DNA from: Acidobacteriota bacterium
GTDB lineage: Bacteria > Acidobacteriota > Terriglobia > Acidiferrales > UBA7541
Direction of reading: 5' to 3'
Assembly (NCBI GenBank): GCA_003224055.1
Contig: QHYE01000054.1
Coordinates: 39,102-92,846 of the forward strand
DNA: 53,745 nucleotides
The notes beneath the pieces are model-generated. The model was not told the DNA's origin, did not search any database, and saw only the letters and a list, made by a program, of their open reading frames with translations. A program made the position numbers and the translations under genes. Position 1 is the stretch's first letter; each line of letters opens with the position of its first letter. Of the stretch, positions 5,453-27,804 are shown piece after piece.

Positions 5453-5855
5453 GTAAACGACTGGCACGAAGGGCGAGCCGTGCACGAAGGTGGTTCCGCG
5501 CGGACGAACGCGCAATGACAGATTTCCGAAGCCGAAGCTCGTTTAGTATTCCTCAACCAAAACTTTAGAATTTCGGGTTTGACATACCTGCCTGACTGCT
5601 CCTAACCTCCGCGCACAAGAAGCAATTCGAATTACAGATAGTAGCCATCGAATAGTTGGTTCAGTTTGCGGGGGAGTGCGGTTCTTCGCCAGTTCCGGAC
5701 ACCGAAGAAAAATCGTGTGTTCGAATCCTACCGCACGGGAAGGGTCCGCTTGGCAGGGAATTGATTAGGTTGTAAGCGGCAGCTGCCAGAAGGAGAGGCG
5801 CGACAAGAGCGATTAGAAAAAGCGATGGTGCAGAGCAAATAAATGCATTTTGAGC

Positions 5856-5883
5856 TTGACAGAGGAAATGGCAGTGGAATAAT
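5856..5883 (+). promoter_or_regulatory. Promoter of the first TonB receptor
   Basis: TTGACA at 5856-5861 and AATAAT at 5878-5883, 16 bp apart. The predicted start near 5890 is just upstream of the LacI-type operator. The -35 context GAGCTTGACA recurs before the GH97 gene. Confidence 0.6.
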
Positions 5884-5900
5884 GCAAAACCATTAGAAGC

Positions 5901-5929
5901 ACGTAAGCGGTTACGTCAAACGCTTACGC
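5901..5929 (+). promoter_or_regulatory. LacI-type operator A with an adjacent second half-site
   Basis: ACGTAAGCGGTTACGT at 5901-5916 is a 16-bp dyad centred on CG with a single mismatched pair, typical of LacI-family operators. A further CGCTTACG at 5921-5928 lies 13 bp on, centre to centre, and may be a second weaker site. Its place just after the -10 box suits repression. Confidence 0.75.
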
Positions 5930-6000
5930 GCAAGGGGTGGGGCCTTCCAGCAGTTGATATTGGGGACCTTGCTACGAAGTCCAACCGCGAGGTGAAATTC

Positions 6001-9000
6001 ATGTTCGCAAAAGAAATCGGATTGAAAAATTTTGGTCTAGGCATCCTGTTCATCTTCTGCCTGGGTTTGTTTGCATGCGCCATTTCAGCGCGGGCACAGG
6101 GCCTTAACGGTACACTGAGCGGCGCTGTGACGGATCCATCGGGAGCCGGCGTGGCGGACGCCGAACTGACGCTGACAAACAAGGCGACCGGGTTCGAATT
6201 GAGAGCCACTTCGAACGAAAGGGGCGAGTATACCTTCCGCAATTTAACGCCCGGCAATTACGATTTGAAGGTCAGCAAGACAGGGTTTGAAAATTACATC
6301 CAAACAGCCATCGTCATCACGATTAATGCCAGTGCTCACGCTGATGCAGGTCTGAGGGTAGGCACGGCAACGGAAACTGTAACGGTTGAGGGTGGCACTA
6401 CCTTGATCAACTCCGAGAACGCAACGTTGCAAGGAGGCATCGAGCCAGAAACCTTAAAGAGCCTTCCGCTTGTCGTTGAGGGGAAGTTGCGTTCCGCGGC
6501 AAGTCTGGTACTGCTCCTTCCTGGTGTGACCAGCGGGAATGGCGCTCAACCTTTCTCGGCGCGTATCAACGGCGGTCAGGAAACCGGCGATGAGGCTCTT
6601 CTGGACGGCGCAAGCATGCAGCAGGGTTTCATGAGCCAGAGCGGACTAATTTCGATCCATCAAGATTTCACGCAATCGCCGGACATGGTTCAGGAAGTTA
6701 AGGTGATCTCGTCGGATTACGAGGCCCAGTATGGGGGAACCACTTCAGCGGTAATTGCGGTGGTCACCAAGTCTGGCGGGAGCCAATATCACGGCGCAGC
6801 GTTTGAATACTCGCGGAACACAGCGCTGAATGCCAAACAATGGGGTACACCCAAGCGCTCTGTCGATATCGAGAACGACTACGGCGTGAACGTCGGCGGC
6901 CCCGTCAAGATTCCGCACTTGTACAATGGGACCTCCATGCACAAATCCTTCTTCTATTTCAACTATGAGTCCTATCACCTGGCCGGCGGATCTTCGGTCC
7001 CTACTATTTCAATTCCTTCGGCCTTGGAGCGAAAAGGGAATTTCACGGACTGGGGGTTCCCCATCTACGCTCCGAGTACTTTCGCGCCTGGCTCTGTGGC
7101 CACGCAGACAACGGGACCTCAGTCGACGGCTTGCAAGAATGCGCTTCCAGCGGGGTTTGGACCTGGACAGCAATTCCCCGGGAATATCATACCCACGGCT
7201 TGCATTAGCCCGATTGCCGCAGCCTACCTGGCGTTCATGCCGACGCCGACGAATTCGCTAGCAACCAACAACTACACGTTGTCGCGGCCCGTACCGGATA
7301 CACTCACCGCAAACAGCAACTATTATATGTTCCGTATTGACCATAACTACGGGTACAGCGACCACTTCTATTTCTCGTACTGGCGACAGTACACGTCACC
7401 GAATCTCGCAACTACTCTTCCCCGTGAGATCGCGAATGACAGGTTCACTCCGCTACAGAATTCACCGATCATGCGGTTCAACTGGGAGCATATTTTTTCA
7501 ACCAAGATGACGAACCACGTCACCTTGGGCTACCTGAATCGCAACGAAGGCGATTCGACGCTCAACCTAGATCAGATCGGCAAACTACCGGGAATCGCAG
7601 GCGTGGCGGGCAATAACACGCTGCCATCCTTCAACTTCAGCGACGGTTTCCAAACGATCTCAAGCGTTGCGGCCAACAAGACCACGCGCCCGACGTGGGT
7701 CCTCAATGATGTCGCCAGCCGGGTGATCGGCCATCACACGGTAACGTTCGGGGCCGAATGGCGCAATGTCGGCGGCAATATCAACTTCCTAGAAAACCAA
7801 GCAGGCACGTTTAGCTTCGACCGTAAGACCACCAGCTCGCCGGGCGTCGTCAGCGGAAGTCCGATCGCCGGATACTTGCTCGGAGCCGTCAGCACCGGCA
7901 CGGTTGATTTTCGTTCAGTCCCCGCTTGGTATCCGCGGCAGAAGGTTTACGTGGTGCACGCGAACGACACCTGGAAAATTACGCCCAAGCTGAGCTTGAA
8001 TTATGGTCTGCGGTGGGACTATTTCTCTCCTTCGCGCGAAAAGCGCGAACACTATGCGTTCATTGATCCGGTGGGAGCCAATCCTGCTGCTGGCGGACGG
8101 CCGGGCCGTTTGGCCTTCGCGGGTACGGGTTACGGCTCAGCCAGTTTCGGCAGGGACTTCCCTGAGGAGCCGTGGAAGAAGGGATTTGCGCCGCGGTTCG
8201 GCATCGCTTATGCGTACAACCCGAAAACAGTAGTACGCGCGGGCTATGGCCTTTTCTTTTCCCGGACGTTCTACCCGGGCTGGGGGGGAGGAATGGCGCT
8301 CGACGGTTTCAACCTCAAGGATACCTTGAGCCTGACGGGGCCCGCAGGTATTGATCCGGCACTTTATCTGGATACAGGATTTCCGTCCCCCACTGCTACG
8401 CTTGGTTGTGCCTTAGGCGCTACCTGTATTAATTCGGGTTTCGACAACGGTCGGTTTCCTCGTGCCGGCAACGGTAACGGGACGGCTTACCGCACGATTG
8501 ATGGTAACCGCCGGCCATACTCCTCGCAGTGGAACCTGACAATTGAGCGGGAGCTCCCCCAAGAAGTTTTTGTGAGCGTGGCTTACGTGGGAAACAAAGG
8601 AACACGCCTTAATTCGAGTTTGCAACCGATTAACGTCCTGAATCCCTTCGATCCGCAGGTTAAGGCCTTGGAGGCGAACACTACTCCCATAGCTCCCTCC
8701 TGCGCCACGGGCACTCCGGCCCCCGGCGCCAACTGCGGATACGTCCCCGAGCTGAATGCTGTCTTTACCTCGGATAGCCAGACGCTTTTTGGCGTGAAGT
8801 CCCCGTACGCGGGGTGGGTAGGGCAACTGAATAGTGCGGGCAACTGCAGCCCTACCGTCGCCCAAGCGCTGCTGCCCTTCCCGCAATTCTGCGGTGCTCT
8901 CCCCGGATTGAATGAAAACCGCGGCAATTCGATCTATCATTCCTTCCAGGTCAAGATCGAAAAACGTTACAGCAAGGGCCTGTACATGCTTGTGTCCTAC

Positions 9001-9786
9001 ACGAACTCGAAGCTCATTTCCGACGCCGCGGACGGTCCCCAGCAAGCTGGCGCCGGGGAGGCCGGTGGCAATTGGAACGCGAGCCAAGGGGTGATCTCGC
9101 CATTCGAGAAACGCCGCGCTCGCTCGCTTTCGGGCGATGACGTCCCCCAGGTGTTGTCGGCAACCTTCGTTTACGATTTGCCCTTCGGCAAAGGCAAGCG
9201 ATATGCGAGCCAGGGCGGCGCCGTCAACTACTTGGTAGGAGGCTGGCAAATCAGCCCCGTCATCCGCTACTCGCGCGGAACTCCAATGTGGTTCCGCTCG
9301 AGCAACTGCCAAGTGGTGCCCCAATTCCGGCAGAACTGTCTGGTGGGTCTAGTCAAGGGCGCGAATCCCTTCTTGCAAGATCCAAATAGCTTCGATCCGA
9401 GCAAGGGCCCGCTGCTCAACGTTTTGGCATTCGAGCCTAAGGGGGCATTCCAACCGGCAGGGGCGTGTCCCACCTGCACCGGGGTGTTTGGATACACGGG
9501 CGTAGGCCCGCGCATTAGCAACCTGCGAGGCCCGAACTACAAGAACCTGGACTTTTCATTGACCAAGAACACCCGGTTCGGGGAGCGCGTGAACTTCCAG
9601 CTTCGCTTTGCGTTCTTTAACGCCTTTAATGCTCATTACTTCGTCAACAACGGCGTTAACAACGTGGGCTCGAGCTTTGCGTTCAACAACTTCGTAGATA
9701 CCGGAGGTGGCAGCGGTTTCGGCGTCTGGAACGGCAATGTCAGTCCGCCACGCACCATTCAGATTGGCGGGAGGCTAGAGTTTTAA
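6001..9786 (+). CDS. TonB-dependent outer-membrane receptor (galactoside locus)
   Basis: A 1261-residue Oar/acidobacterial-type receptor. A signal peptide (about 1-35, ending ISARAQG) is followed by a carboxypeptidase-regulatory-like domain (LNGTLSGAVTDPSGAG to about residue 115), a plug region (SSDYEAQYGGTTSAVIAVVT near 240), and a long beta-barrel that ends in the aromatic residue typical of outer-membrane proteins (GGRLEF). It should import oligosaccharides across the outer membrane with TonB energy. ATG 6001 is chosen over GTG 5992 because GAGGTGA at 5989-5995 serves as its ribosome site and overlaps the GTG. The LacI-type operator and promoter lie directly upstream and a strong terminator directly downstream, so it is a single-gene unit. 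Substrate inferred as a galactose-containing glycan from the neighbouring GH27 and GH97 genes. Confidence 0.92.
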   Translation: MFAKEIGLKNFGLGILFIFCLGLFACAISARAQGLNGTLSGAVTDPSGAGVADAELTLTNKATGFELRATSNERGEYTFRNLTPGNYDLKVSKTGFENYIQTAIVITINASAHADAGLRVGTATETVTVEGGTTLINSENATLQGGIEPETLKSLPLVVEGKLRSAASLVLLLPGVTSGNGAQPFSARINGGQETGDEALLDGASMQQGFMSQSGLISIHQDFTQSPDMVQEVKVISSDYEAQYGGTTSAVIAVVTKSGGSQYHGAAFEYSRNTALNAKQWGTPKRSVDIENDYGVNVGGPVKIPHLYNGTSMHKSFFYFNYESYHLAGGSSVPTISIPSALERKGNFTDWGFPIYAPSTFAPGSVATQTTGPQSTACKNALPAGFGPGQQFPGNIIPTACISPIAAAYLAFMPTPTNSLATNNYTLSRPVPDTLTANSNYYMFRIDHNYGYSDHFYFSYWRQYTSPNLATTLPREIANDRFTPLQNSPIMRFNWEHIFSTKMTNHVTLGYLNRNEGDSTLNLDQIGKLPGIAGVAGNNTLPSFNFSDGFQTISSVAANKTTRPTWVLNDVASRVIGHHTVTFGAEWRNVGGNINFLENQAGTFSFDRKTTSSPGVVSGSPIAGYLLGAVSTGTVDFRSVPAWYPRQKVYVVHANDTWKITPKLSLNYGLRWDYFSPSREKREHYAFIDPVGANPAAGGRPGRLAFAGTGYGSASFGRDFPEEPWKKGFAPRFGIAYAYNPKTVVRAGYGLFFSRTFYPGWGGGMALDGFNLKDTLSLTGPAGIDPALYLDTGFPSPTATLGCALGATCINSGFDNGRFPRAGNGNGTAYRTIDGNRRPYSSQWNLTIERELPQEVFVSVAYVGNKGTRLNSSLQPINVLNPFDPQVKALEANTTPIAPSCATGTPAPGANCGYVPELNAVFTSDSQTLFGVKSPYAGWVGQLNSAGNCSPTVAQALLPFPQFCGALPGLNENRGNSIYHSFQVKIEKRYSKGLYMLVSYTNSKLISDAADGPQQAGAGEAGGNWNASQGVISPFEKRRARSLSGDDVPQVLSATFVYDLPFGKGKRYASQGGAVNYLVGGWQISPVIRYSRGTPMWFRSSNCQVVPQFRQNCLVGLVKGANPFLQDPNSFDPSKGPLLNVLAFEPKGAFQPAGACPTCTGVFGYTGVGPRISNLRGPNYKNLDFSLTKNTRFGERVNFQLRFAFFNAFNAHYFVNNGVNNVGSSFAFNNFVDTGGGSGFGVWNGNVSPPRTIQIGGRLEF

Positions 9787-9813
9787 ACAAGGCGACCCAA
9801 ACAACCACCCCAC

Positions 9814-9851
9814 CAGCGCCCCGGCTCTCTTGACCGGGGCGCTGTTTTTTT
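9814..9851 (+). terminator. Rho-independent terminator after the TonB receptor
   Basis: An 11-bp GC-rich stem (9814-9824 with 9834-9844) around a 9-base loop is followed by seven T residues at 9845-9851. Confidence 0.9.
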
Positions 9852-9881
9852 GTCGGGATGAGAAGACTTGCTTTGCGGAGG

Positions 9882-10901
9882 CTATCTCGGTGAGGAAGGT
9901 GAATTCGCTACGGGCGGCGCTTCACTGGCCTTCTTCAACTCCTGGAATCGGTCAATTTCCTTCTTGGAAAGCTGGTCTTCCCCCAGGCGGTGATAGATGC
10001 GGCCCAGGAGATAGTGTGGCTCGGGATAGGCCGGATCCAGTGCGATGGCTTGATTCAGCGACAGAACGGCTGCCTGGTAGCTCCCCTGCTTCTCCAGGAC
10101 GCGGCCGAGCTGATAATGCGCTTGCGGAAGGCGGGGGTCGAAGCTGAGGGCTTCGCGCAAGTGCTTCTCGGCGTCCGCGAGTTGATTCACGGAAACGAGC
10201 GAACCAGCAAGATCCACGTGAGGCCAAGGCGAGTGCTTAGATTGGAGGCGATTCAGCTCGACGGCACGGTCAAAGTTCTTGATGGCTTCGTTGGATTGAC
10301 CAAGGTAGTCATAGCAAAGCCCCAGGCTGTCGTAAGCGCGCATCATCGTTGGATCCAGTCCAACGACCTTTTGCAATCGGGAAATGGCCACTGCGTAGTT
10401 GTGCGCATCGTAATCAAGGCGGGCGAGCCAGTAAAGGTACAGCGGATCTTGAGGCTGCGCGGCCACAAGCTTCTCCAGCTCCGGCCGCGCCCAGTCGCGC
10501 CGGTTGAGCCTTACGTAAGCCATTGCCAGCGTGAACCGGCTGCGGTCATCGAGAGGAGCTATAGCTTCCGCCTTTTTCCAGGCGATGGCGGAATTCAGGT
10601 ATTGGCCGTCCAGAAAGAAGATCGCGCCGGCCATGGTGAGCATTTTTGCGGTTCGAATGGATTTGGGATCACGCTCGGCTTCCTCGACGAGGATCGTTTC
10701 CGCGCGTTTGTAGTCTCTGTGCTTGAGGGCATCCTGGAGCTCGAGCCGGCGCGGTTCGCTGAGCTGCAAATCAGTTAGATCAGGTGGCACGGTTGCGGGG
10801 GCAGGACTCTCCTGGGCACCAGAGCGGTCTTGCGCGGACAAGAGAAACGGCAGGCATGAGCCGAACAAAGAGCAGGCAAATATGAAAACAGTTTTCTTCA
10901 T
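9882..10901 (-). CDS. Exported TPR protein
   Basis: A 339-residue protein with a signal peptide (MKKTVFIFACSLFGSCLPFLLSAQ). A Pro-rich linker follows, then TPR repeats over roughly residues 50-325, for example LYLYWLARLDYDAHNYAVAI and AHYQLGRVLEKQGSYQAAV. TPR arrays act as protein-protein docking solenoids; with the signal peptide this should act in the periplasm or at the outer membrane. It is the second gene of a minus-strand pair after a sister TPR gene (122 bp gap), read from the spacer that holds operator B. No enzymatic domain is visible. Confidence 0.8.
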   Translation of the reverse strand: MKKTVFIFACSLFGSCLPFLLSAQDRSGAQESPAPATVPPDLTDLQLSEPRRLELQDALKHRDYKRAETILVEEAERDPKSIRTAKMLTMAGAIFFLDGQYLNSAIAWKKAEAIAPLDDRSRFTLAMAYVRLNRRDWARPELEKLVAAQPQDPLYLYWLARLDYDAHNYAVAISRLQKVVGLDPTMMRAYDSLGLCYDYLGQSNEAIKNFDRAVELNRLQSKHSPWPHVDLAGSLVSVNQLADAEKHLREALSFDPRLPQAHYQLGRVLEKQGSYQAAVLSLNQAIALDPAYPEPHYLLGRIYHRLGEDQLSKKEIDRFQELKKASEAPPVANSPSSPR

Positions 10902-11023
10902 CGCTCTTTCGACATATTCCCCTGGCTAGGTCCTGCGGGCAGCATGATTTCCGCGCTTCCTCATCATGAGCGCTTCCGCGGGCAGGAGAGTCCGGCAGCC
11001 GTATACGCAGAATAGCGCGATGG

Positions 11024-11878
11024 CTAAGGCGTTGAAGCAGCGATCGCGGCCTCAATCCTCGCTCTTGCATCCAGTGCGGCCTTACTCTCCGGCACAAGCT
11101 TTAGTTCGAGCTGGACTTCCCCGAGTGCGTCGTCGAATTTTTTCAGTTCCAGCCAGATCAGAGCCATGGCCAGATGAATCTCCGGCAGCGTGGGATCGGA
11201 GCGCGCGGCTTGCCGGTAGGCGGCGATGGCCAGATCATACTTTTCCTGGATGACGTATTCTTGCCCGAGAGCCTGATGCACGCGTGCGGAATCGGGATTG
11301 ATGCCGGTGAGTTGGCCATAGGACCAGCCAGAGAGCTTCGCCCAGGCGGTGCCCAGTTGGTACGAATATTCCGGTTCTTGTGGAGCCAACTGCACAAGCT
11401 TCTGGTATTCCTGGACGGCAGCTATCCAGTTGTCCGAGACCTTGTAGGCTTTCGCCAACTGCAGATGGGCTTGAGGCTCTTCCGGCAACAGGGCGACGGC
11501 GCGCTTGAGTTCGCGCACGGCCTCGGCATTTTTTCGGAGCGCCAGGAGGCTGGAACCGAGGAGCAGGCGGGAAGGGCCGTAATTCGGTTGAAGAGCGAGG
11601 GCTTGACGAAATCGCGTGACCGCTTCGGGATGCTTGCTGCGCAGTTGCGCGATAACGCCGAGGTTGTGGTAGAGGAGAGGATGCTTGATTCCCTGCCGCA
11701 GGGCATCGGTGAACACTTGCTCAGCGGAATTCAGATCGCCGGATTTGAGAGCCTGGACGCCTGCGGCGATTTTTGTTTCAAACGAAGGCGGCAGGTTTTC
11801 CTGTGCGAGGGCATGCGCGGCGATGCAGAAGTACAGCAAGAGAAAGATTCCAAAGCGTGGGGCTCTAGAAGGACACAC
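11024..11878 (-). CDS. Exported TPR protein, start uncertain
   Basis: The stop is at 11024. GTG 11878 is taken as start because the signal peptide (PRFGIFLLLYFCIAAHALAQ) begins immediately after it. The frame stays open to an ATG at 12043, which would put about 55 extra residues before the signal. No good ribosome site supports either. TPR repeats fill the mature part (AEQVFTDALRQGIKHPLLYH, EAVTRFRQALALQPNYGPSR, AIAAYRQAARSDPTLPEIHL). It is transcribed away from operator B. A TATACT box at 12019-12014 on this strand could be its -10. Like its neighbours it is probably a periplasmic scaffold of the galactoside locus. Confidence 0.7.
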   Translation of the reverse strand: MCPSRAPRFGIFLLLYFCIAAHALAQENLPPSFETKIAAGVQALKSGDLNSAEQVFTDALRQGIKHPLLYHNLGVIAQLRSKHPEAVTRFRQALALQPNYGPSRLLLGSSLLALRKNAEAVRELKRAVALLPEEPQAHLQLAKAYKVSDNWIAAVQEYQKLVQLAPQEPEYSYQLGTAWAKLSGWSYGQLTGINPDSARVHQALGQEYVIQEKYDLAIAAYRQAARSDPTLPEIHLAMALIWLELKKFDDALGEVQLELKLVPESKAALDARARIEAAIAASTP

Positions 11879-12050
11879 GCCAGGGCGCGGGGGCTTCGCC
11901 CAAACACTCGAAGGGGAACCAGTGGATGTAAGTCCGGCACTTTGAGCAAATCGGTTCGAGCGCGCGAGATTGGTAAGGGCGGCCACGAGTAGTTTGGATA
12001 GAGACCGGTGGATAGTATAAAGGAGTGCGAAATTAGGCCGCATAGTAATT

Positions 12051-12071
12051 ATTTAAGCGCTTACGTATAAT
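12051..12071 (+). promoter_or_regulatory. LacI-type operator B overlapping a consensus -10 box
   Basis: TAAGCGCTTA (12054-12063) is a perfect 10-bp palindrome centred on CG, followed by CG as in the other operators. TATAAT, the exact -10 consensus, follows at 12066-12071 on the plus strand; the -35 is poor. The site lies between two divergent TPR gene pairs and could control both. Confidence 0.7.
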
Positions 12072-12123
12072 TGTGCGGGCGAGTATCTGGAAGTTCCCTG
12101 AAAACAGGCTCAAATCCTGGTTG

Positions 12124-13725
12124 ATGATGCGATTCCGCTGGCCGATTCCCGCTGTGACCCTATGCATTTCCTTGTGTGCTGCGCATTTTGGCCCTGCCTA
12201 TCCCAAACAGGACTACTCGACCGAAAGAGATCAAAAAATTCTGCAGATTCAACAACTGATTCAGGATCACGATTTGGCGGAGGCCAGCCGCAAAATCCTT
12301 GAAGCGGCAAAACAGTATCCTGCAGACGCCGGGCTGGACAACTTGCGGGGCATCGTCGAGGCGCAGCAGGGGAACTACGCCGCTGCGGAAAAGAGTTTCA
12401 GCCGGGCTCTGAAGAGGGAGCCGAAATTCACGGGTGCTTCCTTGAATTTAGGGCGGCTTTATCAAGAGAACTTTGCCGGCGATGCGCAGGCGCGGAGAAA
12501 GGCGCTCGGCGTTTACCTGGGAGTGCTGGCCTACGACCCCAAGAACGCGGAGGCGAATTACCAGAGCGCGGCGCTGTTGTTGGAACAAGGCAAGTACCAA
12601 GATTCGCTCGATCGCGTTTCGCGGCTCTCGGAAGAAAGCCAAACGGGAGCGCAGGTATTGTCCATCGTGTGCGCGGACTACGCTGGGCTTGGCGATCGAA
12701 AACAGACGGACGCTGCAGCGGCGCGCCTGCTCGCTGACGCAAATTTTTCCGAGGCGGATGCGCAGCAAGCGTTGCTGGGCCTGAGAACAGGGAAACGAGA
12801 CGACCTGGTTGTAACGCTACTCGAGAGTTTGGAGAAACGTCAGGCGTTGTCGCCGGAGCTGCTGCGCGCGCTGGGCTTGGCTTACGAAGGAGCGGACAGA
12901 CTGGTGGAGGCGCGAGCGGCGCTGGAAAGATCCATCACGCCGGAAAGCCTTACAGTTGGTTCGTTACTGGAGTTGGCGCGGGTCGCACGCAAGCAGAAAG
13001 ATTATCAGGGCGCGCTGGGATACTTGGCGCACGCGCGAGATCTGGAGCCGAAGAACGCGGGCATACACTACTATTTTGGGTTGGTGTGCATGGACTTGAG
13101 CCTCGTCGCGGAAGCGCGGAATTCCTTCGAGAAAGCCGTGCAGATCGAGCCTGAAAATCCGAACTACAACTATGCGATGGGGGTGAGCACGACTTTCCGG
13201 CATGACCCCGGGGAGGCTGTGCCGTATTTTGAGAAGTACCTGAGGTTGAGGCCGCAGGATCCGCGAGGAAAGCTGGCGCTGGGTGCAGCTCTTTTCCGGG
13301 CGAAGGATTATGAGGCAGCGGTTCCCCGACTGGAGGAAGCTGCCAAGACTGCCGAAACCGCGACGGCGGCACATTACTACCTTGGTGCGATCGCACTGCA
13401 AGAACGACGGCTTGAGGAAGCTCACAACGAATTGGAACTTGCTTTGAAGAGCAAACCAGATTACGTGGATGCACTCGCGGAGCTGGGCCAGTATTACTTG
13501 ATGCAGAAAGACTACGCGCAAGCAGAAAAGCAGATTCGGCGGGCGTTGGAGCTCGACCCGGAACACTACACGGCAAATTTCTACCTGCTCACGCTGTACA
13601 CGCGGACGCGGGATGCGCGCCAGGAAGCACAGGCGAAACACTTCGAGGAACTCAAGAAGCTCCTGGCGGAGAAGACGCAGGAAATCCTGCGCATCGTTGA
13701 AGTACGGCCGCTTGAAAACCCATGA
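12124..13725 (+). CDS. Exported TPR protein, large
   Basis: About 533 residues. ATG 12124 is chosen because the TATAAT box at 12066-12071 would start transcription near 12078, after the GTG at 12073, and because a signal peptide (MMRFRWPIPAVTLCISLCAA) starts here. More than ten TPR units follow, for example NYAAAEKSFSRALKREPKF, AGIHYYFGLVCMDLSLVAEA and AQAEKQIRRALELDPEHY, and the C-terminus is charged and probably helical. The stop overlaps the next TPR gene by ATGA, so the two are co-translated. A periplasmic scaffold is inferred; no catalytic motif was seen. Confidence 0.8.
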   Translation: MMRFRWPIPAVTLCISLCAAHFGPAYPKQDYSTERDQKILQIQQLIQDHDLAEASRKILEAAKQYPADAGLDNLRGIVEAQQGNYAAAEKSFSRALKREPKFTGASLNLGRLYQENFAGDAQARRKALGVYLGVLAYDPKNAEANYQSAALLLEQGKYQDSLDRVSRLSEESQTGAQVLSIVCADYAGLGDRKQTDAAAARLLADANFSEADAQQALLGLRTGKRDDLVVTLLESLEKRQALSPELLRALGLAYEGADRLVEARAALERSITPESLTVGSLLELARVARKQKDYQGALGYLAHARDLEPKNAGIHYYFGLVCMDLSLVAEARNSFEKAVQIEPENPNYNYAMGVSTTFRHDPGEAVPYFEKYLRLRPQDPRGKLALGAALFRAKDYEAAVPRLEEAAKTAETATAAHYYLGAIALQERRLEEAHNELELALKSKPDYVDALAELGQYYLMQKDYAQAEKQIRRALELDPEHYTANFYLLTLYTRTRDARQEAQAKHFEELKKLLAEKTQEILRIVEVRPLENP

Positions 13726-14684
13726 AGATGCTTCGCGACACGTCTCGTTCTGCTGCCTTCCCTTCCCTACTGTGCATTTTTTGTTTCCTACTGCTGGTGG
13801 CCACTGCGGGCGGGCAAACGTGCGGACAATCTTTGGCGCTGACCGAAAGCACCAAAGCGTTCTATCGCGGCGATTATTCGCGGGCCGCGGAACTGGCGGA
13901 AAAGCATCTGCGAGCTTACCCAAAGGATGTGCCGGTCAGATTGATTCTGGCGCGGGCGGAGCTTGCGCAGGGGAAATTCCAGCGAGCATTTGAGGGGCTT
14001 CAAAAGGTTCTGGCATCCGATCCGAAGAACATAGATGCGCTTTATTACCTATCGCTTATTGCGCGGGAACTTTCTCATCGGGAATATGAAAGACTTTTTT
14101 CGATTGCACCGGACTCCGATCGTGTCCACCAGCTTCTCGGCCAGGCGGCGCTGGCGGCGGAGAATAAGAACGAAGCGGAGGAGGAATTTCAGAAGGCACT
14201 GAAAGCCAATCCTCGATCCATCGAAGTGGCCATGGAACTGGCGGAACTGAAGCGCTCGCAATCCAAATTTGATGAAGCGATCGACTATTACACGCAAGCG
14301 GGACAGATCGGCCCGCTGAGCTATGAAATTGCGTATGGTTTGGGCGCTTGTTACACCTACAAGCAGGAGTATCCGCGAGCGATCGAATGGCTGCGCAAGG
14401 CTGTCGATTTGGCTCCGGATTCCGCGGCGGGCCGGTTTGCGCTTGGAAACGCACTGTTTCAGAATGGCCAGCTCGAAGCAGCCGTCCCGGAATTAAACGC
14501 TTCCCTGCAATTTGAGCCACGGATGAAGCAGGCGTATTTCCTGCTCGGACGTGCTTATTCGAAGCTCGGGCGTCAGGACGAGGCGAAGGCGGCGCTAAAG
14601 AAGCTAGACGAACTGAACCGTGCTGAAATACCGGGGCAGGACAAAAATTCCGCTGGCGACACGAATCCAAAACCGTACAAATAG
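13722..14684 (+). CDS. Exported TPR protein, coupled to the preceding one
   Basis: A 320-residue protein with a signal peptide (residues 1-31, ending VATAGGQ) and TPR repeats to about residue 300 (RAAELAEKHLRAYPKDVPVR, AIEWLRKAVDLAPDSAAGRF, QAYFLLGRAYSKLGRQDEAK). The repeat register is interrupted near residues 115-125, where a half-repeat is missing (ARELSHREYERLFSIAPDSD). Its ATG overlaps the stop of the upstream TPR gene. A charged, Asn/Lys-rich tail ends the protein. It is the fourth TPR gene around operator B. Confidence 0.8.
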   Translation: MKMLRDTSRSAAFPSLLCIFCFLLLVATAGGQTCGQSLALTESTKAFYRGDYSRAAELAEKHLRAYPKDVPVRLILARAELAQGKFQRAFEGLQKVLASDPKNIDALYYLSLIARELSHREYERLFSIAPDSDRVHQLLGQAALAAENKNEAEEEFQKALKANPRSIEVAMELAELKRSQSKFDEAIDYYTQAGQIGPLSYEIAYGLGACYTYKQEYPRAIEWLRKAVDLAPDSAAGRFALGNALFQNGQLEAAVPELNASLQFEPRMKQAYFLLGRAYSKLGRQDEAKAALKKLDELNRAEIPGQDKNSAGDTNPKPYK

Positions 14685-14691
14685 GAAGAAC

Positions 14692-14713
14692 GGCCCGTCT
14701 CAGAAGCCGGGCC
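14692..14713 (+). terminator. Weak hairpin between convergent genes
   Basis: GGCCCG (14692-14697) pairs with CGGGCC (14708-14713) just after the TPR operon. The loop is 10 bases and no T run follows, so terminator function is doubtful. Confidence 0.3.
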
Positions 14714-14785
14714 CTGCACTGGCACGGAGGCAGACTGCATGATTTTAGAAATGCGGACTGCGGCCCCAGAGTTTCCGTCGCAAGG

Positions 14786-15958
14786 CTATTTGGAAACTTT
14801 CACCAGCATTACGCCGTGGGTCGGCACATCGGCCGAGTAGGAATTTTGTATCGTGCCGAGATCCTTGTGATCCAGGAGATCTCGGAGTTTCGCAGAGGCA
14901 GGCGCGCCGATGGATTTAAAGTCGAGCGTCATCTTAGTGGCCGATTCACTGCGATTGAAAAGCCCCACGGCCTGACTCCCATCGGCGAGCGGCTTTACCC
15001 AAATTTCCAGCGGCCCTTCCTGCCACACGCGACGCCCCTGTACGCCTTTTGCGTCCTGATCGACGGCAAGAATCTCGGAATTCATGAGCAGCTCTTTTGT
15101 TTCGGGCGACATACTTCGCAAATCGTTTCCCGCGAGCAGAGGAGCTGCAAGGATTGCCCATAGCGCCATGTGAGTGCGGTATTCATCGCGCTTCATACCG
15201 CCATTTCCAACCTCCAGCATGTCCGGGTCGTTCCAGTGTCCAGGACCGGCAAACTTTTCCAGACCGTTCTGCCCGAATCCGATCAAGGTCATGCGGTCGT
15301 ACGTATCATTGATGTCTCCGGTGGTGCGCCACAAGTTGCCGGTGGTGGGTCCCCAGCGCCAGGGCGTCTTCACTCCCCAGTTACAGATGCTGAACACGAT
15401 GGGGCGGCCCGAGTGCACCAGCGCATCGCGGAACTTCGCGTACTGGACTTCCGGATCGAGGCCTTCCGAATTGCACCAGTCAATTTTTACGTAATCGATT
15501 CCCCATGAGGCATAGGTCTTGGCATCCTGATCTTCGTGATTCAAGCTGCCGGGCCGCTTTTCGCAGGTGCCCGTGCCCGCGTCGGTATAAAGACCGAGCT
15601 TAAGGCCTTTGCTGTGCACATGATCCGCGAGGGCCTTCATTCCTTCGGGGAATCTTGTGGGATCTGCGACGATGGTTCCCGAGGCATCACGGCTCACCTG
15701 CCAGCAGTCGTCGATGTTCACATACTGGTAGCCGGCGGCTTGCATGCCACTGCTGACCATGGCGTCGGCCATTTCACGAATGAGTTTGTCGCTGACGTTG
15801 CAGCCAAACTTGTTCCAACTATTCCATCCCATCGGCGGAGTTTGCGCAAGAGACGCGGAAGACTGGCCGGAGGCTGCGGGTGTAAGTAAGATCACAGAAG
15901 TGGCGACGAGGAGACAGGCAAGAAACGCAAGAATAGGAAAAGGCCGCTGAAAGCTCAT
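14786..15958 (-). CDS. GH27 alpha-galactosidase, exported
   Basis: A 390-residue protein: signal peptide (about 1-30), then the GH27 (beta/alpha)8 domain starting TPPMGWNSWNKFG and a small beta-sandwich at the C-terminus. The retaining mechanism needs two Asp. The nucleophile is D160 in YVKIDWC and the acid/base lies in GHWNDPDM (D244/D246). It releases terminal alpha-galactosyl residues. ATG 15958 is preferred over the in-frame TTG 15970 because GAGGA lies 4-5 bases before it. Operator C begins 23 bp upstream of the start, so it should be under the LacI-type repressor. A second GH27 protein at 40672 differs at the nucleophile. Confidence 0.93.
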   Translation of the reverse strand: MSFQRPFPILAFLACLLVATSVILLTPAASGQSSASLAQTPPMGWNSWNKFGCNVSDKLIREMADAMVSSGMQAAGYQYVNIDDCWQVSRDASGTIVADPTRFPEGMKALADHVHSKGLKLGLYTDAGTGTCEKRPGSLNHEDQDAKTYASWGIDYVKIDWCNSEGLDPEVQYAKFRDALVHSGRPIVFSICNWGVKTPWRWGPTTGNLWRTTGDINDTYDRMTLIGFGQNGLEKFAGPGHWNDPDMLEVGNGGMKRDEYRTHMALWAILAAPLLAGNDLRSMSPETKELLMNSEILAVDQDAKGVQGRRVWQEGPLEIWVKPLADGSQAVGLFNRSESATKMTLDFKSIGAPASAKLRDLLDHKDLGTIQNSYSADVPTHGVMLVKVSK

Positions 15959-15978
15959 AATTCCTCGCAAAATTGGGG

Positions 15979-16006
15979 TACGTAACCGCTTACGCGGAGT
16001 CTAGCA
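15979..16006 (-). promoter_or_regulatory. LacI-type operator C and possible promoter of the GH27 gene
   Basis: CGTAACCGCTTACG at 15981-15994 is exactly the reverse complement of the 14-bp core of operator A. On the minus strand TGCTAGACT (16006-15998) resembles an extended -10 box, which would put the start of transcription inside the operator. The divergent FG-GAP gene at 16158 could also respond. Confidence 0.7.
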
Positions 16007-16157
16007 CGCGACGTCAAAAAGTGCGATGCTATTCAACCCTGGAAAAATATTCGCGTGCGACGCGGTTATGCCGCGCGAGTCGAACCGCTTTCGATGGGGA
16101 CAACTCACTGAGTGGCACGGACCGATGCAGCATTGAAGGTTAGCGAACCGGAGCCAG

Positions 16158-17993
16158 ATGACATTTCCTCTATCCAAATTTCTTCCTGTACTACTTTTTA
16201 TGCCGGTTTTGTTCGCCCTCAGCGGAGCGGCTCAGGAGCCTGAGGATCGCAAAACGCAGAAGCCAGAGTCCATGGGCGTGGCGACCGGCACTCCTCATGC
16301 TCCGGTAAGAGACGCCCTATCCCGTCCGATCACTGCCGGAGGATTTGTTGACGGCGCGCCGGTGGTATTCACGGACATCACGAAGCAGGCAGGGCTGGCC
16401 AAATTCTTGCACCGTTCCGGGGGCCCGGAGAAGGCCACGATTCTCGAGACTCCGGGTTCCGGGGTGGCCTTGCTCGACTATGACAATGACGGGTGGCTGG
16501 ACATTTATCTGCTCAACGGTTCCACATTCGGTGCGCTGAAGGGGAAGGAGGCCGCTCCTCGCGCCATGCTGTTTCACAACAATCACGACGGCACGTTTAC
16601 CGACGTCACGGACAAGGCGGGCGTGGCGAACGAGCGATGGGGCTTCGGCGTAGCCGTGGGCGATTACGATAACGATGGCTGGCCGGACCTGTACGTTGCC
16701 AATTATGGAAAGAACCGTCTCTACCACAACAATCATGATGGAACGTTCACGGACGTGGCGGAGAAGGCAGGTGTGACGTTGGGGGGATGGTCCACGGGAC
16801 CGACGTGGGGCGACTACGACCACGATGGCCTGCTGGATCTGTTTGTTCCGGGCTACGTGAAATTTGACGCAGACCACCCTCCTATCGCCGGCCAGGGAGG
16901 AATTCCGGCCAGCGCGTGCCAATTTCGTGGCGTGAATCTCCTGATGTGCGGGCCTCGTGGGCTGCCGGGCGAGAGCGACCATCTGTTTCACAATAACGGC
17001 GACGGGACTTTCACGGACGTGAGCAAAAAGGCCGGCGTCTCCGACCCGCAGGGCTACTACGGTCTCGCCTCGGTGTTTGTGGATGTGGATGACGACGGCT
17101 GGGTTGACCTGGTAGTGGCCAACGATTCCGTGCCCCGGTGTCTCTATCGCAATCTTCACGATGGCACGTTCGAAGACGTGAGTTACCTGTCGGGTTTTGC
17201 TCTGACTAACGAGGGGCTTGCACAAGCATCCATGGGAATCGCGGTGGGGGATTACAATCGAGATGGACGAGTCGATTTTCTGATCACGACATTTTCGGAC
17301 GATTACAAAACACTTTACAGAAATGACGGCAACAACAATTTCTCAGATGTGACGTACCCAGCGGGCTTGGGCACACCGACGATTCCCTTCCTCGCCTGGG
17401 GTGCCGGCTTTCTGGACTTTGATAATGATGGGTTCCTGGACTTATTTATTGCCAATGGGCACGTCTACCCATCGGTGGACCAGCGGGATTGGGGCACAAC
17501 CTGGGCCGAACGGCCGCAGCTTTTCCGCAATCTGGACGGGACCAAGTTTCAGGAAGTTCCTCCCGCGACCGGAAGTGGCTTGGCGGATGTCATTCCGGCA
17601 CGAGGGGCCGCGTTCGGGGACCTGTTCAACGATGGCCACACAGACGTCGTCCTGAACAATATGGATTCCGCTCCGGCGCTGCTTCGGAATGTGATGAAGA
17701 ACGGCAACCATTGGATCACGCTCCAATTGGCGGGAGGACTAAAGATCCCGCGGGACGCTATTGGCGCGAAAGTTTTTCTTAGTACAGGCAGTGTGTGCCA
17801 GCGGGCAGACGTCATCAGCGGAGGGAGCTACGGGTCCAGTTCCGATCAGCGCGTTCATTTCGGGTTGGGGTCCGCCACTAGAGTGGATAAGTTAGAGATT
17901 CAATGGCCGAGCGGAAAAAGAGAAGAGGTGGTGGTGCCCGGTGTGGATCGGATTCTCAAGGTCGTGGAGGGACAGGGAGTCATTGAGAAATAA
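16158..17993 (+). CDS. FG-GAP repeat / UnbV (CRTAC1-type) secreted protein
   Basis: A 611-residue protein with a Sec signal peptide (1-25). It has seven calcium-binding FG-GAP/VCBS-like repeats, each with a DxDxDG loop, for example [46 protein letters not shown] and [16 protein letters not shown]; these build an integrin-like beta-propeller. The C-terminal UnbV/ASPIC domain spans about residues 515-605 (NHWITLQLAG, SGGSYGSSSDQRVHFGLG, DKLEIQWPSG). The molecular role of UnbV domains is poorly known. A GGAG site precedes ATG 16158. The heptahaem cytochrome follows after 49 bp, probably in one operon, and a homologue faces it from the other side. Confidence 0.88.
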   Translation: MTFPLSKFLPVLLFMPVLFALSGAAQEPEDRKTQKPESMGVATGTPHAPVRDALSRPITAGGFVDGAPVVFTDITKQAGLAKFLHRSGGPEKATILETPGSGVALLDYDNDGWLDIYLLNGSTFGALKGKEAAPRAMLFHNNHDGTFTDVTDKAGVANERWGFGVAVGDYDNDGWPDLYVANYGKNRLYHNNHDGTFTDVAEKAGVTLGGWSTGPTWGDYDHDGLLDLFVPGYVKFDADHPPIAGQGGIPASACQFRGVNLLMCGPRGLPGESDHLFHNNGDGTFTDVSKKAGVSDPQGYYGLASVFVDVDDDGWVDLVVANDSVPRCLYRNLHDGTFEDVSYLSGFALTNEGLAQASMGIAVGDYNRDGRVDFLITTFSDDYKTLYRNDGNNNFSDVTYPAGLGTPTIPFLAWGAGFLDFDNDGFLDLFIANGHVYPSVDQRDWGTTWAERPQLFRNLDGTKFQEVPPATGSGLADVIPARGAAFGDLFNDGHTDVVLNNMDSAPALLRNVMKNGNHWITLQLAGGLKIPRDAIGAKVFLSTGSVCQRADVISGGSYGSSSDQRVHFGLGSATRVDKLEIQWPSGKREEVVVPGVDRILKVVEGQGVIEK

Positions 17994-18042
17994 CCGGCAC
18001 GATCTGGAAGCTGCTGCCTCCCGGAGTGGATACCGGAGAACC

Positions 18043-19230
18043 ATGCTTCCGCGCCCAGTAGCTCGCCTGCTTCCCTTCTGTCATGGCGCTCTGTGCTTGC
18101 TTCAACTTTCCTGCATTACGACTGCGCAGACGCGTCAGGAGAAGGTAACCGACTTGTCCAATTTTCGTCCGCGGAAGGAAATGCCTGGCGAAAGTTTCGT
18201 GGGCCAAGAGGCTTGCGCGAGCTGTCACGCGGAGAAGAGCCGCACTCAATCGCACACCGCGATGCGGCATGCCCTGAGTATTCCTTCCGAAAGCGATGTG
18301 CTGCGAGCCCACCCAAGGATGACTTTTCAGACCGGGGAGTACTCTTACGAGATCGTAAACGACAGCAAACAAAACTCGTATCGCGTGACCAACGGAAAAG
18401 AGACCATCAGCGAGCCGATACTCTACGCGTTCGGGAATGCACACGTCGCGCAAACTTATGTCTACCGCCGCAACGGGAAGCTTTATGAAGGTCGCGTAAG
18501 CTATTACGCGGCGATCGATGGATTGGACTGGACGATCGGAGACGTTCTCCATCCTCCGCCGAGCCTGGAGGAGGCCGCGGGCCGGGACATCAGTGGCGAT
18601 GAAGCCCGGAACTGCTTCAGTTGCCACGGTACTGCTGCCGTGGTCAGTACCAAACTTCAACTCGATCGATTGATTCCCGGGGTGACCTGCGAGGCCTGTC
18701 ACGGGCCGGGAGGGAGCCACGCTTCCATCATGCTCTTTACGCCCGGAGCGAGCGTGGATATTTTCAATCCCAAGAAACTTGATGCAGAAAGTCTTTCACA
18801 GGAATTTTGCGGGGCTTGCCATCGGGGAGTGGACACTGTGGCGATGATGCCCGACCTCGGGGGCGTCAACAATATCCGTTTTCAGCCTTATCGCTTGTTC
18901 AACAGCCGTGGGCACGATTCCAAAGATGCGCGGCTTGCCTGTACGGCTTGCCACGACCCCCACGTGGATCTGAAACACGGGGACAACTCATACGATTCCA
19001 ACTGCACGAATTGCCATGCGACGCGCAGTGCGGGACGGGCGTCGCTGGAGAAAAGCGTCGCAACAGATGGCAAACGAGCGGCTGTTAGTCCCGCGGGCAA
19101 ACCATGTCCTGTGGCAAGCGAGCGGTGCGTGAGCTGTCACATGCCAAAGGTGGAGTTACCGGGCGCGCACTTCAAGTTTACCGACCATCGCATTCGAATC
19201 GCGCGGGAAGGTGAAGCGTATCCTTACTGA
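18043..19230 (+). CDS. Periplasmic seven-haem cytochrome c
   Basis: A 395-residue protein with seven CxxCH haem sites, in order CASCH, CFSCH, CEACH, CGACH, CTACH, CTNCH and CVSCH. The spacing, with CHGPGGSH and CTACHDPH surroundings, resembles multihaem cytochromes of the c554/DmsE type. It should carry electrons in the periplasm. ATG 18043 is chosen: CCGGAGAACC precedes it and a hydrophobic signal segment follows (LLPFCHGALCLLQLSCITTA). An upstream frame to 17941 overlaps the FG-GAP gene. It is co-oriented with and 49 bp after the FG-GAP/UnbV gene, and convergent with a second one. The electron donor is not evident; association with the UnbV proteins is inference. Confidence 0.9.
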   Translation: MLPRPVARLLPFCHGALCLLQLSCITTAQTRQEKVTDLSNFRPRKEMPGESFVGQEACASCHAEKSRTQSHTAMRHALSIPSESDVLRAHPRMTFQTGEYSYEIVNDSKQNSYRVTNGKETISEPILYAFGNAHVAQTYVYRRNGKLYEGRVSYYAAIDGLDWTIGDVLHPPPSLEEAAGRDISGDEARNCFSCHGTAAVVSTKLQLDRLIPGVTCEACHGPGGSHASIMLFTPGASVDIFNPKKLDAESLSQEFCGACHRGVDTVAMMPDLGGVNNIRFQPYRLFNSRGHDSKDARLACTACHDPHVDLKHGDNSYDSNCTNCHATRSAGRASLEKSVATDGKRAAVSPAGKPCPVASERCVSCHMPKVELPGAHFKFTDHRIRIAREGEAYPY

Positions 19231-19245
19231 GGATTTCGAGGAGGA

Positions 19246-20979
19246 TCATTTAATCCCGGCTCCCTCGACGAGGGTGATGTAGCGATCGACGGGAAGGTCG
19301 GTGAACGTTTCCGTACGCTCGCTTGGTTGAGGCCAGCGGATCTCCAATTTGTCAATTTTCTTCTGTTTGCCGAGGCCCAGCACTTCGCGGGGATCATGCG
19401 AAGAAAGATAGCTGCCGCCCCCCACTTTCAGTCTGCTGCGTTTCAGGTCGCCTGCCTGCCATGTGATTCTTGCACCGACGGCGTCCGGGTTTGACTTCTT
19501 GCCGACAAGGCGAACGCCGAGCCAGTGGTTTTCCGGCGCTGAAACATTTTTCAGAAGCACGGGTGATCCGCCATTGACGGAGACCAGGACGTCCAGAGCG
19601 CCGTCATTATTGAAATCTCCCACGGCCATGCCGCGCGCCGCGAAGCTCTGCGCAAAAGCCGGGCCGGCAAGGTCACTAACATTTTCCAGAGTGCGGCCAT
19701 TGTTGTGGAACAGCAGCAGCGGCTCCTTGTAGGTAACATGGCTGGAATGCGATTCGATCTTGTCGTCGGGGTGTCCGTTGGCGATAAACAGATCCAGGTT
19801 GCCGTCGTTGTCGTAATCGAAAAATTTCACTCCCCAGCCGCTCATGAGGCGCGTCAACCGCCCGAGTCCCATGGGGCCGGCCAGATCCTCGAATGTCAGA
19901 TCGTGATTGTTGCGATAGATGGAGTACATCTCCTGATCCACGTTTGTAACGAAGAGATCCTGCCAACCGTCTTGATCGAAATCCGCGGAGTCCACGCCCA
20001 TGCCGGAGCGCTCGCGGCCAGACTGGCTGTAGGCGACACCCGCATCGAGACCCAGCTCCTCGAACTTTCCGTTGCGTTTGTTGACGAAGAGAAAATTGGC
20101 GACCGTGTCGTTGGCAACGAAAAGATCCATCCAGCCGTCGTTATTGACGTCCGTCGCAACGACACCCCAGGCTTTTCCCAGCGCCTTGGCAATGCCGGAT
20201 TCCTTGCTGACGTCGGTGAAGGTGCCGTTGCCGTTGTTGTGGAAGAGCCAGCTTGCCGCCGGAGCGTAGACGCGCGGAACGCAATAGTAGCGCTCCCCGG
20301 TCTTCGCGTCCCCACAGAATTTGTTCTTCGATTTGTCAAAGTCCACGAAGCGGCACACAAATAAATCCAGCCGTCCGTCGTTGTCGTAGTCGAACCAGAC
20401 GGCGCTGGAGGCCCAGCCGGGAGCTGCTAAGCCGGCTTTCTGCGTAACGTCGGTGAAGGTCCCGTTGCCATTGTTGTGATAAAGAATGCTGCGGCCGTAC
20501 TGGGTGACGTATAGATCGGGCCAGCCGTCGGCATCGTAGTCGCCAACAGCGACGCCCATGCCGTAGCCTCCGGCGGCGACGCCGGCTTTTTCAGTCACGT
20601 CGGTAAACGTGCCATCCCGATTGTTGCGGTAGAGCGCATTGCGCAGTGGCGGATCCGGTGTGAAAAAATCGCACTTGCCGCCGTTGACCAGATAAATGTC
20701 CATCCAGCCGTCGTTGTCGTAGTCCAGAAAGGCGCAGCCCGCGCCGGTTGTCTCCGGCAAGTAATAGTCCGGTGATCGGCCGTTCTCATGGCGCCAGGCG
20801 AGTCCGCTGGCGGCCGAGGGCACTTCCTCGAAGAGTGGTTTCGGAGTGGCTTTTGGGATTCCCGCTGGGGGGACAGAACGGAAGTGGGGGAGCAAAGAGA
20901 TGCTCTGGAGTTTGGCCAGGCACCCGCTGCTGGCCAAACTCAATCCCTTGACAAATTGTCTTCGCGTCCAACCTGGCAT
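19246..20979 (-). CDS. FG-GAP repeat / UnbV protein with Tat-type signal
   Basis: A 577-residue homologue of the protein at 16158. It starts with a twin-arginine motif ([20 protein letters not shown]), so it is probably exported folded; the Cys may be a lipid site. Seven DxDxDG repeats follow ([60 protein letters not shown] and others), then an UnbV domain ([38 protein letters not shown]). ATG 20979 is chosen because the Tat motif begins there; longer frames to 21117 add low-complexity sequence. Two paralogues using different export routes on both sides of a heptahaem cytochrome suggest a joint function. Confidence 0.85.
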
Positions 20980-21341
20980 TGGTTTCTTATGGTGCGTTTT
21001 CGTCTGTTTCAGAGCTGCGGATCCCCGTTGGTGCGGCGCATCAGGGGCTGGAAATAATAATACTGTAGTACGACAAAATGAGAAAAGGCACCTCATCGAG
21101 GCGCTGAGACGAAGCAATGTTTAGCGGCATTGAAGAACAGTTTTATTTTTACGGAAGGAATACGAGCTTGACAACCATTCGCGGAGCGTCGTACAAGCTT
21201 GAGGGAACTAAGTTAAACGGTTACGTCAGTGGTTTTGGCTCGAATTACCTAAATTGCTCAAGATAAATTCTCCCCGATGGGACATCGTGATTCGTTGGGT
21301 GTGCACAAGGACTGATAGCTGCGCGACGCCAAAGGAGACTC
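20980..21341. other. Divergent regulatory spacer between UnbV and GH97 genes
   Basis: No gene is seen in these 362 bp. The right half carries the GH97 promoter and operator D, described separately. The left half is the leader of the UnbV gene and shows no clear motif. Confidence 0.5.
21168..21226 (+). promoter_or_regulatory. GH97 promoter and LacI-type operator D
   Basis: TTGACA at 21168-21173 is followed after 18 bp by TACAAG (21192-21197). The operator, core TAAACGGTTACG at 21214-21225, matches operator A in 11 of 12 bases. The distance from the -35 box to the operator centre is about 50 bp here and 52 bp at operator A, and both promoters share GAGCTTGACA. Confidence 0.65.
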
Positions 21342-27348: not shown

Positions 27349-27804
27349 TTCTCTTTTTCCTCGCGGGCTGCTCGCGACATACGTCTCGACGATCCCCGTC
27401 TGTCGCGGCGTTCCGGGCGCCTTGACCACACAGCTACGCCCTTCGCACCATGAATTGAAGGCGGCGCCGCACTCGCTTCGCACCATCACTTTGCTAGATA
27501 GTCGCTATCAATTACTTGAATCGATCTCGTGAGGGCACATTAGGAGCAGTGTCACAGCGATGTCAATCCGGAAAATCTAAAGGAGTGGTTTAGCCAGACT
27601 AAATCTGCAGTGTTGCTAGCGTCTGGAGCGCGAACATACCCAAACAACACCCGCCATGCTGTCATCAGCCCGGTTTGCAGTTCTCCGGAAGGCAAGGACG
27701 ATGTCGCCGCCTTCTCCATGGATCGGCACCTTACACGTATCTTTTCTGGACTTCCATTGGGCCCCTTGTCTCTAGGTATGGTTCTCCACTATATTTCGCG
27801 CGAC
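27349..27804. other. Divergent regulatory spacer between TonB receptor and MFS gene
   Basis: About 455 bp without a supported gene. The MFS reading frame extends into it to 27610, but the leader does not look like protein of the family. It contains a 13-bp dyad at 27497-27509 and a weaker TTTAG/CTAAA dyad at 27589-27603. Confidence 0.45.
27497..27509. promoter_or_regulatory. Possible operator dyad GATAG-N3-CTATC
   Basis: A perfect 5-bp inverted repeat around TCG lies upstream of the second TonB receptor. It differs from the LacI-type operators. It is short enough to be chance. Confidence 0.25.

Follow-up and report, generated by a model that had tools for sequence, protein, structure and literature searches.

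A 53,745-nucleotide stretch of an Acidobacteriota genome (contig QHYE01000054.1, positions 39,102 to 92,846; called the window below) carries a gene for a LacI-family regulator and, beside it, four CG-centered palindromes lying before genes for a TonB-dependent-receptor-like protein, for tetratricopeptide-repeat (TPR) proteins, and for glycoside hydrolases (GH) of families 27 and 97. We read these as a local LacI repressor regulon with sites A and C, and probably D and B, and give this reading a probability of about 0.75. The inclusion of the receptor and of GH27 in one LacI regulon is strongly supported: their sites are conserved, A has a telling promoter geometry, and the motif is rare in the genome, all of which was computed directly, as were the sites themselves. 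An earlier reading made from the letters of the window (the sequence-only reading) had joined the receptor, a TPR quartet, GH27, and GH97 into one regulon; the receptor and GH27 hold up, GH97 is plausible, and the TPR quartet is the weakest part.

The core of the palindromes, TAANCGNTTA, occurs in the window at exactly 5904-5913, 12054-12063, 15983-15992, and 21214-21223, as had been proposed, and each time between genes (4/4). The sites themselves, none of them assigned to a strand, are the following:

5901..5916, operator A, ACGTAAGCGGTTACGT; rank 1 in the window with a matrix from which the window's own genome was excluded
12051..12066, candidate operator B, ATTTAAGCGCTTACGT, overlapping a TATAAT box; rank 3 in the window
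15980..15995, operator C, ACGTAACCGCTTACGC; rank 2 in the window
21211..21226, candidate operator D, AGTTAAACGGTTACGT; rank 5 in the window
~5917..5931, possible second half-operator directly 3′ of A, forming an inverted repeat with A

The full operator of A and C is a 16-bp element, ACGTAAnCGnTTACGT (the final base of C being C). As first noted from the letters, C (15981-15994) is the exact reverse complement of the 14-bp core of A, and D (21214-21225) agrees with A in 11 of 12 bases. B and D have a single good outer half each. All four are even palindromes with a central CG, the characteristic form of LacI-family operators in the parts of a published survey covered here (PMC4052901). Half-sites like that at 5917-5931 can be seen by eye in three related genomes as well (G026, G032, G024).

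Dinucleotide shuffles of the window (n = 100) contain 0.24 cores on average and 2 at most. In the whole genome (4.53 Mb) there are 7 cores, 4 of them inside the 15-kb stretch beside the LacI gene, so that the comparable density inside coding regions that would have spoken against an operator is not found. The reversed control pattern gives 75 genome matches versus 7 for the core; the motif is thus rare, without genome-wide enrichment. A chance origin of the four-site set is rejected on the shuffles, the genome count, and the Markov expectation (see below). The remaining three cores lie within an open reading frame (ORF) of 1058 aa (C135:29708), with its end 50 bp 5′ of a 176-aa ORF (C77:36537), and where nothing is overlapped except a 141-aa ORF of uncertain status (C30:6217). 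With matrix scores of 6.5, 8.3, and 3.2, respectively, they are unsupported as further members of the regulon.

The regulator gene lies just upstream of these sites, as the sequence-only reading had it:

4433..5452, plus strand, LacI-family regulator (Pfam LacI PF00356, 3.2e-18; Peripla_BP_3 PF13377, 9.8e-40)

The protein has both parts expected of the family, an N-terminal LacI helix–turn–helix (HTH) and a C-terminal periplasmic-binding-like sensor domain, and its best relatives in the Protein Data Bank (PDB) are RbsR (202 bits) and PurR (185 bits). It is one of five LacI HTH genes in the genome. The nearest named LacI relatives, at 82-86% identity (among the best 80 of at least 584 relatives), belong to five Acidobacteria metagenome genomes from a series of soil depths, four of them gp2; to judge from the samples of these relatives, the habitat of the host is probably soil.

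A search of 150 relatives for an ortholog of this LacI gave a match at 83-87% identity in 8 genomes of the genus and a match at 60% in one of another family (G110). Core A is kept in 9/9 loci of the genus in which the 5′ region of the receptor is readable (own, G026, G032, G017, G019 twice, G024, G012, and G018), with the full ACGTAAnCGnTTACGT in 8/9; the contigs of G028 and G015 stop before the receptor and are therefore outside the count. Around A, 160 bases are identical between G017 and one G019 copy. Core C is kept in 8/8 GH27 loci of the genus with an identity from about 80% upward (own, G026, G017, G019, G012, G018, G011, and G032). Motif matches led to the choice of the loci of G011 and G018 and of the GH27 contig of G012; a GH27 protein search of 10 genomes gave G011, G018, and G012, together with G032, as orthologs of that identity. 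In the second locus copy of G019 (L088 6934-7873), the LacI matches occur in shifted pieces, so that the gene is probably broken, with the receptor and GH27 operators intact. Since A and C alone are conserved, an equal standing of the four sites was dropped after the footprinting.

Site A also stands in a defined position with respect to a promoter:

5856..5883, plus strand, sigma-70-like receptor promoter, TTGACA-16-AATAAT (11/12 consensus bases)

This is the best of 4 promoter matches in 5500-21400, where shuffles average 5.8 matches, and both boxes (TTGACAG...AATAAT) precede A in 9/9 aligned loci. Operator A starts 18 bases past the end of the −10 box, ~10 bp downstream from the inferred start site. 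Such a position is that of a repressor, and a protein bound there would be expected to block transcription. Neither C nor D has a coding-strand promoter among those reported by the scan of 5500-21400.

The genes around the four sites, with their protein families, are:

5992..9786, plus strand, TonB-dependent-receptor-like outer-membrane protein, CarboxypepD_reg + OMP_b-brl_4 (PF25183, 5.4e-167; PF13620, 2.7e-19)
9882..10901, minus strand, TPR protein 1 (Pfam TPR), with an N-terminus that looks secreted by eye
11024..12043, minus strand, TPR protein 2 (Pfam TPR; translation); the real start may be further in
12073..13725, plus strand, TPR protein 3 (Pfam TPR), ATG candidate at 12124
13722..14684, plus strand, TPR protein 4 (Pfam TPR), with a 4-bp overlap with TPR3
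14786..15970, minus strand, GH27 alpha-galactosidase-like enzyme (Melibiase_2, 1.1e-80), ATG candidate at 15958
16158..17993, plus strand, FG-GAP/UnbV_ASPIC protein (Pfam), divergent to GH27 across operator C
17941..19230, plus strand, multiheme cytochrome c-like protein (Pfam cytochrome), with a mechanical ORF start
19246..21117, minus strand, second FG-GAP/UnbV_ASPIC protein (Pfam, translation); ATG 20979 opens a Tat-like RRQF leader, by eye
21342..23303, plus strand, GH97 enzyme (Pfam GH97, 2e-106)
24013-27489, second receptor (Pfam)
27610-29133, MFS protein, past GH97 (Pfam)

The closest solved relatives of GH27 are the alpha-galactosidases 6f4c (5.5e-118) and 1uas (3.2e-114) in the PDB, so that by its domain and its nearest structures it classes as a predicted alpha-galactosidase. 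GH97 aligns with the retaining alpha-galactosidases 3a24 and 5e1q at 564 and 561 bits, versus 151 bits with SusB; by this comparison it belongs with the BtGH97b-type retaining alpha-galactosidases rather than with SusB, and a SusB-type alpha-glucosidase is disfavored (564 vs. 151 bits). The Asp of the KVDFM motif, which we take to be the nucleophile, is aligned (the same position is Gly in 5e1q). No Pfam match to the SusD family was found at E 0.001 among the 19 window proteins scanned.

On the preferred reading, in which we infer binding, repression rather than activation, the nature of the inducer, and the control of the GH97 and TPR genes, the regulon would work as follows. Without inducer, a LacI dimer would occupy ACGTAAnCGnTTACGT at A, just 3′ of the receptor promoter, and at C, in the promoter region of GH27. 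It would probably also occupy two weaker sites that are lineage-specific, D ahead of GH97 and B between the TPR genes that diverge there, and the bound protein would block transcription. An alpha-galactoside, or galactose freed from it, would enter at a basal level via the receptor and bind the sensor domain of LacI; its release from the DNA would turn on the TonB-type receptor for uptake and GH27 and GH97 for hydrolysis. An alpha-galactoside or galactose is the likely signal, because GH27 and GH97 are both nearest to alpha-galactosidases; the galactose, melibiose, or raffinose-type sugars guessed earlier as ligands fit these two enzymes.

Several observations weigh against this regulon, some of them on its extent and others on its regulator. 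The promoter of the LacI gene itself has no core, nor does any inner-membrane transporter, including the MFS gene at 27610-29133 (both from the window scan). The palindrome of B is absent from the TPR2/TPR3 intergenic DNA of 5/5 other syntenic loci (best 4-6 mismatches per 16-mer), and D was not found before 6/6 same-genus GH97 orthologs (in one, 140 bases are readable). The operator matrix, made from 14 same-genus A and C sites, scores A at 27.6, C at 25.3, B at 18.0, and D at 14.4. Between B and D it places the sequence GCGTAAGCTATTACGC at 18494-18509, inside the cytochrome gene, with a center that is not CG and a score of 15.4 (rank 4); the next score below D is 9.8. Elsewhere in the genome, the coding position C3:1679 scores 19.2, more than B. 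The matrix scoring covers the first 30 loci, from the listed part of 120 matches.

The likeliest alternative is that the regulon consists of A and C alone, B and D being chance or decayed sites, with the TPR genes and GH97 outside LacI control. We regard it as a serious possibility, if on balance a doubtful one. It agrees with the lack of conservation of B and D in the same genus and with the missing outer half of each; in addition, B shares its right half with a promoter-like box that is present also in G026 (CTTACGTATAAT) and G017 (CTTACATATAAT), and sites of equal score occur elsewhere in the genome, some of them coding. A first-order Markov model gives about 5 to 8 sites scoring at least 14.3 per 4.53 Mb. 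For the 1,603 intergenic bases of the stretch (gene starts being approximate), the same model predicts 0.002-0.003 sites of the quality of D; two beyond A and C are present, which argues against the A-and-C-only regulon. Chance placement of B and D is thus unlikely, yet both are lineage-specific. The distance from the start of TTGACA to the core also speaks for D: it measures 46 bp at D (TTGACA 21168-21173) and 48 bp at A, and ahead of the GH97 gene of G110 it is again 46 bp. In that genome of another family, GH97 adjoins the 60% LacI and has AGGTAAGCGCTTGCGT upstream, with 2 mismatches; upstream of its GH27 there is a 3-mismatch site, AGTTAACCGCTTTCGT, and no exact core.

For GH97, the spacing and the G110 site thus stand on one side, and the absence of D from the 6/6 same-genus orthologs and of a reported promoter at D on the other, which leaves LacI control of GH97 plausible. 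Control of the TPR genes is uncertain, the palindrome being missing from the five other syntenic intergenic regions. The GH97 promoters of G017 and G028 (L154, L155) share another palindrome-like element, GGTTAAGCGCTTTACA, possibly the operator of a different LacI paralog.

As to the regulator, a different LacI paralog, or several in cross-regulation, could be the main binder instead of the adjacent LacI, which we consider unlikely. Related LacI loci do use TAANCGNTTA: the core is found in 9/21 homolog loci versus 0.49 expected, and, at no more than 700 bp from the LacI gene, in 16/80 named loci (the best 80 of at least 584 relatives) versus 0.65 expected. G018 and G011 keep the sites with no ortholog found, the best match to LacI reaching 42% identity in G018 and 46% in G011; the 17 kb upstream of the G018 receptor contain no match to the window LacI. 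These may be gaps of draft genomes, or a paralog may have taken over.

On the other side, the core is absent from the loci of the four other LacI genes of this genome (~1.5 kb on each side), and among the 80 named loci the full ACGTAA..TTACGT lies near LacI genes with the VSTATVSHVINKTR helix only. In 5/6 named loci this helix is paired with ACGTAAGCGCTTACGT (the sixth contig stops within the gene); these loci are the footprint genomes again. The NKTG, NNTG, and NRTG helices occur with TTAA..TTAA in 8/8 loci having the core, two of which (L056, L062) have a His-type helix, with the same His as the window LacI. Most R-type loci have no core; in the 11 that do, TGTAA..TTACA is present on both sides in 5 and on at least one side in 7. 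Two distant R-type loci (L236, L238) have CGTAA..TTACG, a caveat to the exclusive pairing of VSTATVSHVINKTR and a further point against the adjacent LacI. The PurR helix differs from that of the window LacI at one position in VSTxTVSHVINKTR, and the E. coli PurR consensus is given as ACGCAAACGTTTGCGT in the part of PMC4576408 covered. The covariation of helix and operator is thus partial, and the pairing of LacI 4433-5452 with the motif has moderate support.

The wider spread of similar sequences likewise counts against the regulon. The one-sided TAANCGNTTACG occurs in 33/36 same-genus genomes among the matches listed, with or without an ortholog of LacI, and the reversed control is commoner than TAANCGNTTACG across the genus; genus-wide counts of this pattern were set aside as a test of LacI dependence, since it is too short to discriminate. 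Among 9 loci chosen for the motif, 3 have regulon genes and 6 do not; a tenth region chosen in this way is that of G110, treated above. One of the six is in G020 (L129 6140-6155), where GCGTAAGCGGTTACGT is one mismatch off the operator and the surrounding 20 kb contain no match to window genes.

The last alternative, that the sites serve an activator or no transcription factor at all (being, for example, DNA motifs of another process), is very improbable: clustering and conservation do not give the sign of regulation, and other genomes do have similar palindromes at a distance from such genes, which counts against a LacI operator, but A has the repressor position given above, ~10 bp past the inferred start site, and the CG-centered even palindrome is typical of LacI-family operators in the parts of PMC4052901 covered.

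Beside these loci, several same-genus genomes have a GH27 paralog (54-60% identical), which in some of them adjoins a LacI of 42-43% identity. The idea that this is the regulon in a second copy was rejected, the operator not being close by: in 10 GH27-paralog loci with ~1.5-kb flanks, the best 16-mer has at least 4 mismatches, and L159 has two 3-mismatch sequences kilobases from the paralogous LacI–GH27 pair. The second LacI (42-43%) adjoins the second GH27 (55-58%) at L158 5568-7753, L159 8452-10660, and L160 5884-8059, pairs that seem to point to an old partnership of LacI and GH27. Near another LacI gene of the window's genome (L012 1358-1373, contig C14) there is a perfect 16-bp CG-centered palindrome, AACAGCACGTGCTGTT, ~1.3 kb from a receptor among the matches listed; this is possibly a second LacI–receptor pair.

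Four same-genus genomes (G000, G027, G031, and G033, three chosen for their long contigs) were surveyed for such neighborhoods; the random expectations ignore contig ends and the kinship among the four. At no more than 20 kb, 16/26 LacI genes have a neighbor of the ASPIC/UnbV family (by position, about 7.5% at most would be expected), 28/63 ASPIC/UnbV genes have a LacI gene (about 4.8% expected), and 21/26 LacI genes have an OMP_b-brl_4 receptor (about 25% expected, with 150 of 263 receptor matches listed). Each genome has 53 to 78 OMP_b-brl_4 matches and 11 to 21 UnbV_ASPIC genes.

Because the LacI, ASPIC/UnbV, and receptor genes colocate above expectation, a recurrent locus type is suggested. 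Speculatively, it could be a sugar module of Acidobacteriota without SusD, made up of a LacI repressor, a TonB-type receptor, and secreted TPR and ASPIC/UnbV repeat proteins (here also a multiheme cytochrome). In such a module, surface binding or processing, the job of SusD-like proteins elsewhere, would fall to the TPR and ASPIC/UnbV proteins, and LacI paralogs with recoded helices would keep the parallel loci separate; we consider this doubtful. The present locus gives a testable operator with a predicted regulator for uncultivated Acidobacteria and ties an otherwise unassigned receptor to alpha-galactosides. If the partial match of helix and operator flanks holds across LacI paralogs, sequence could be used to assign regulators to the sugar loci of Acidobacteria, and should the wider link to ASPIC/UnbV and TPR proteins prove functional, this would hint at what these secreted families do.

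In the polysaccharide utilization loci of Bacteroidetes, an outer-membrane receptor is clustered with glycoside hydrolases, GH97 included, and the usual sensor types differ from LacI. The acidobacterial locus differs from the SusC/SusD loci of that phylum in having no SusD match among the 19 proteins scanned.

The nearest solved relatives, E. coli PurR and RbsR, are alike in that the PurR helix and ACGCAAACGTTTGCGT are close to the window LacI and its operator (in the part of the source covered); from the context, a different ligand and different genes are expected. No published account of the acidobacterial LacI/TonB/ASPIC-UnbV arrangement was found at the level of titles and abstracts, with part of the results covered, and the parts of PMC3174227 and PMC5507952 covered contain nothing on the present locus. 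The LacI-family sugar regulons of RegPrecise (PMC4052901, in part) have the same elements, an HTH with a sugar-binding domain, a CG-centered palindrome, and sites before neighboring sugar genes. By a term search, the main text of that survey mentions neither Acidobacteria nor TonB, and the parts covered contain no regulon of a receptor with GH27 and GH97.

Closer still are two systems with receptors, each compared through the covered part of its source. In the sucrose CUT locus of Xanthomonas (PMC1790865), the adjacent LacI/GalR-family repressor SuxR controls a TonB-dependent receptor and a carbohydrate enzyme, and the trio of receptor, degradative enzyme, and regulator is present in the window; the sugar and enzymes are different, the acidobacterial locus adds TPR, ASPIC/UnbV, and cytochrome genes, and no operator-bearing inner-membrane transporter was found in it. 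The Bgl, Scr, and Mal regulons of Shewanella (PMC2996990) likewise combine a predicted LacI regulator with an outer-membrane TonB-type transporter and sugar enzymes; they differ in phylum and sugars, and the parts covered contain no alpha-galactosidase regulon. LacI-controlled TonB receptors are thus already known (Xanthomonas) or predicted (Shewanella), and by analogy with them the proposed regulon is a sugar switch of an ordinary kind.

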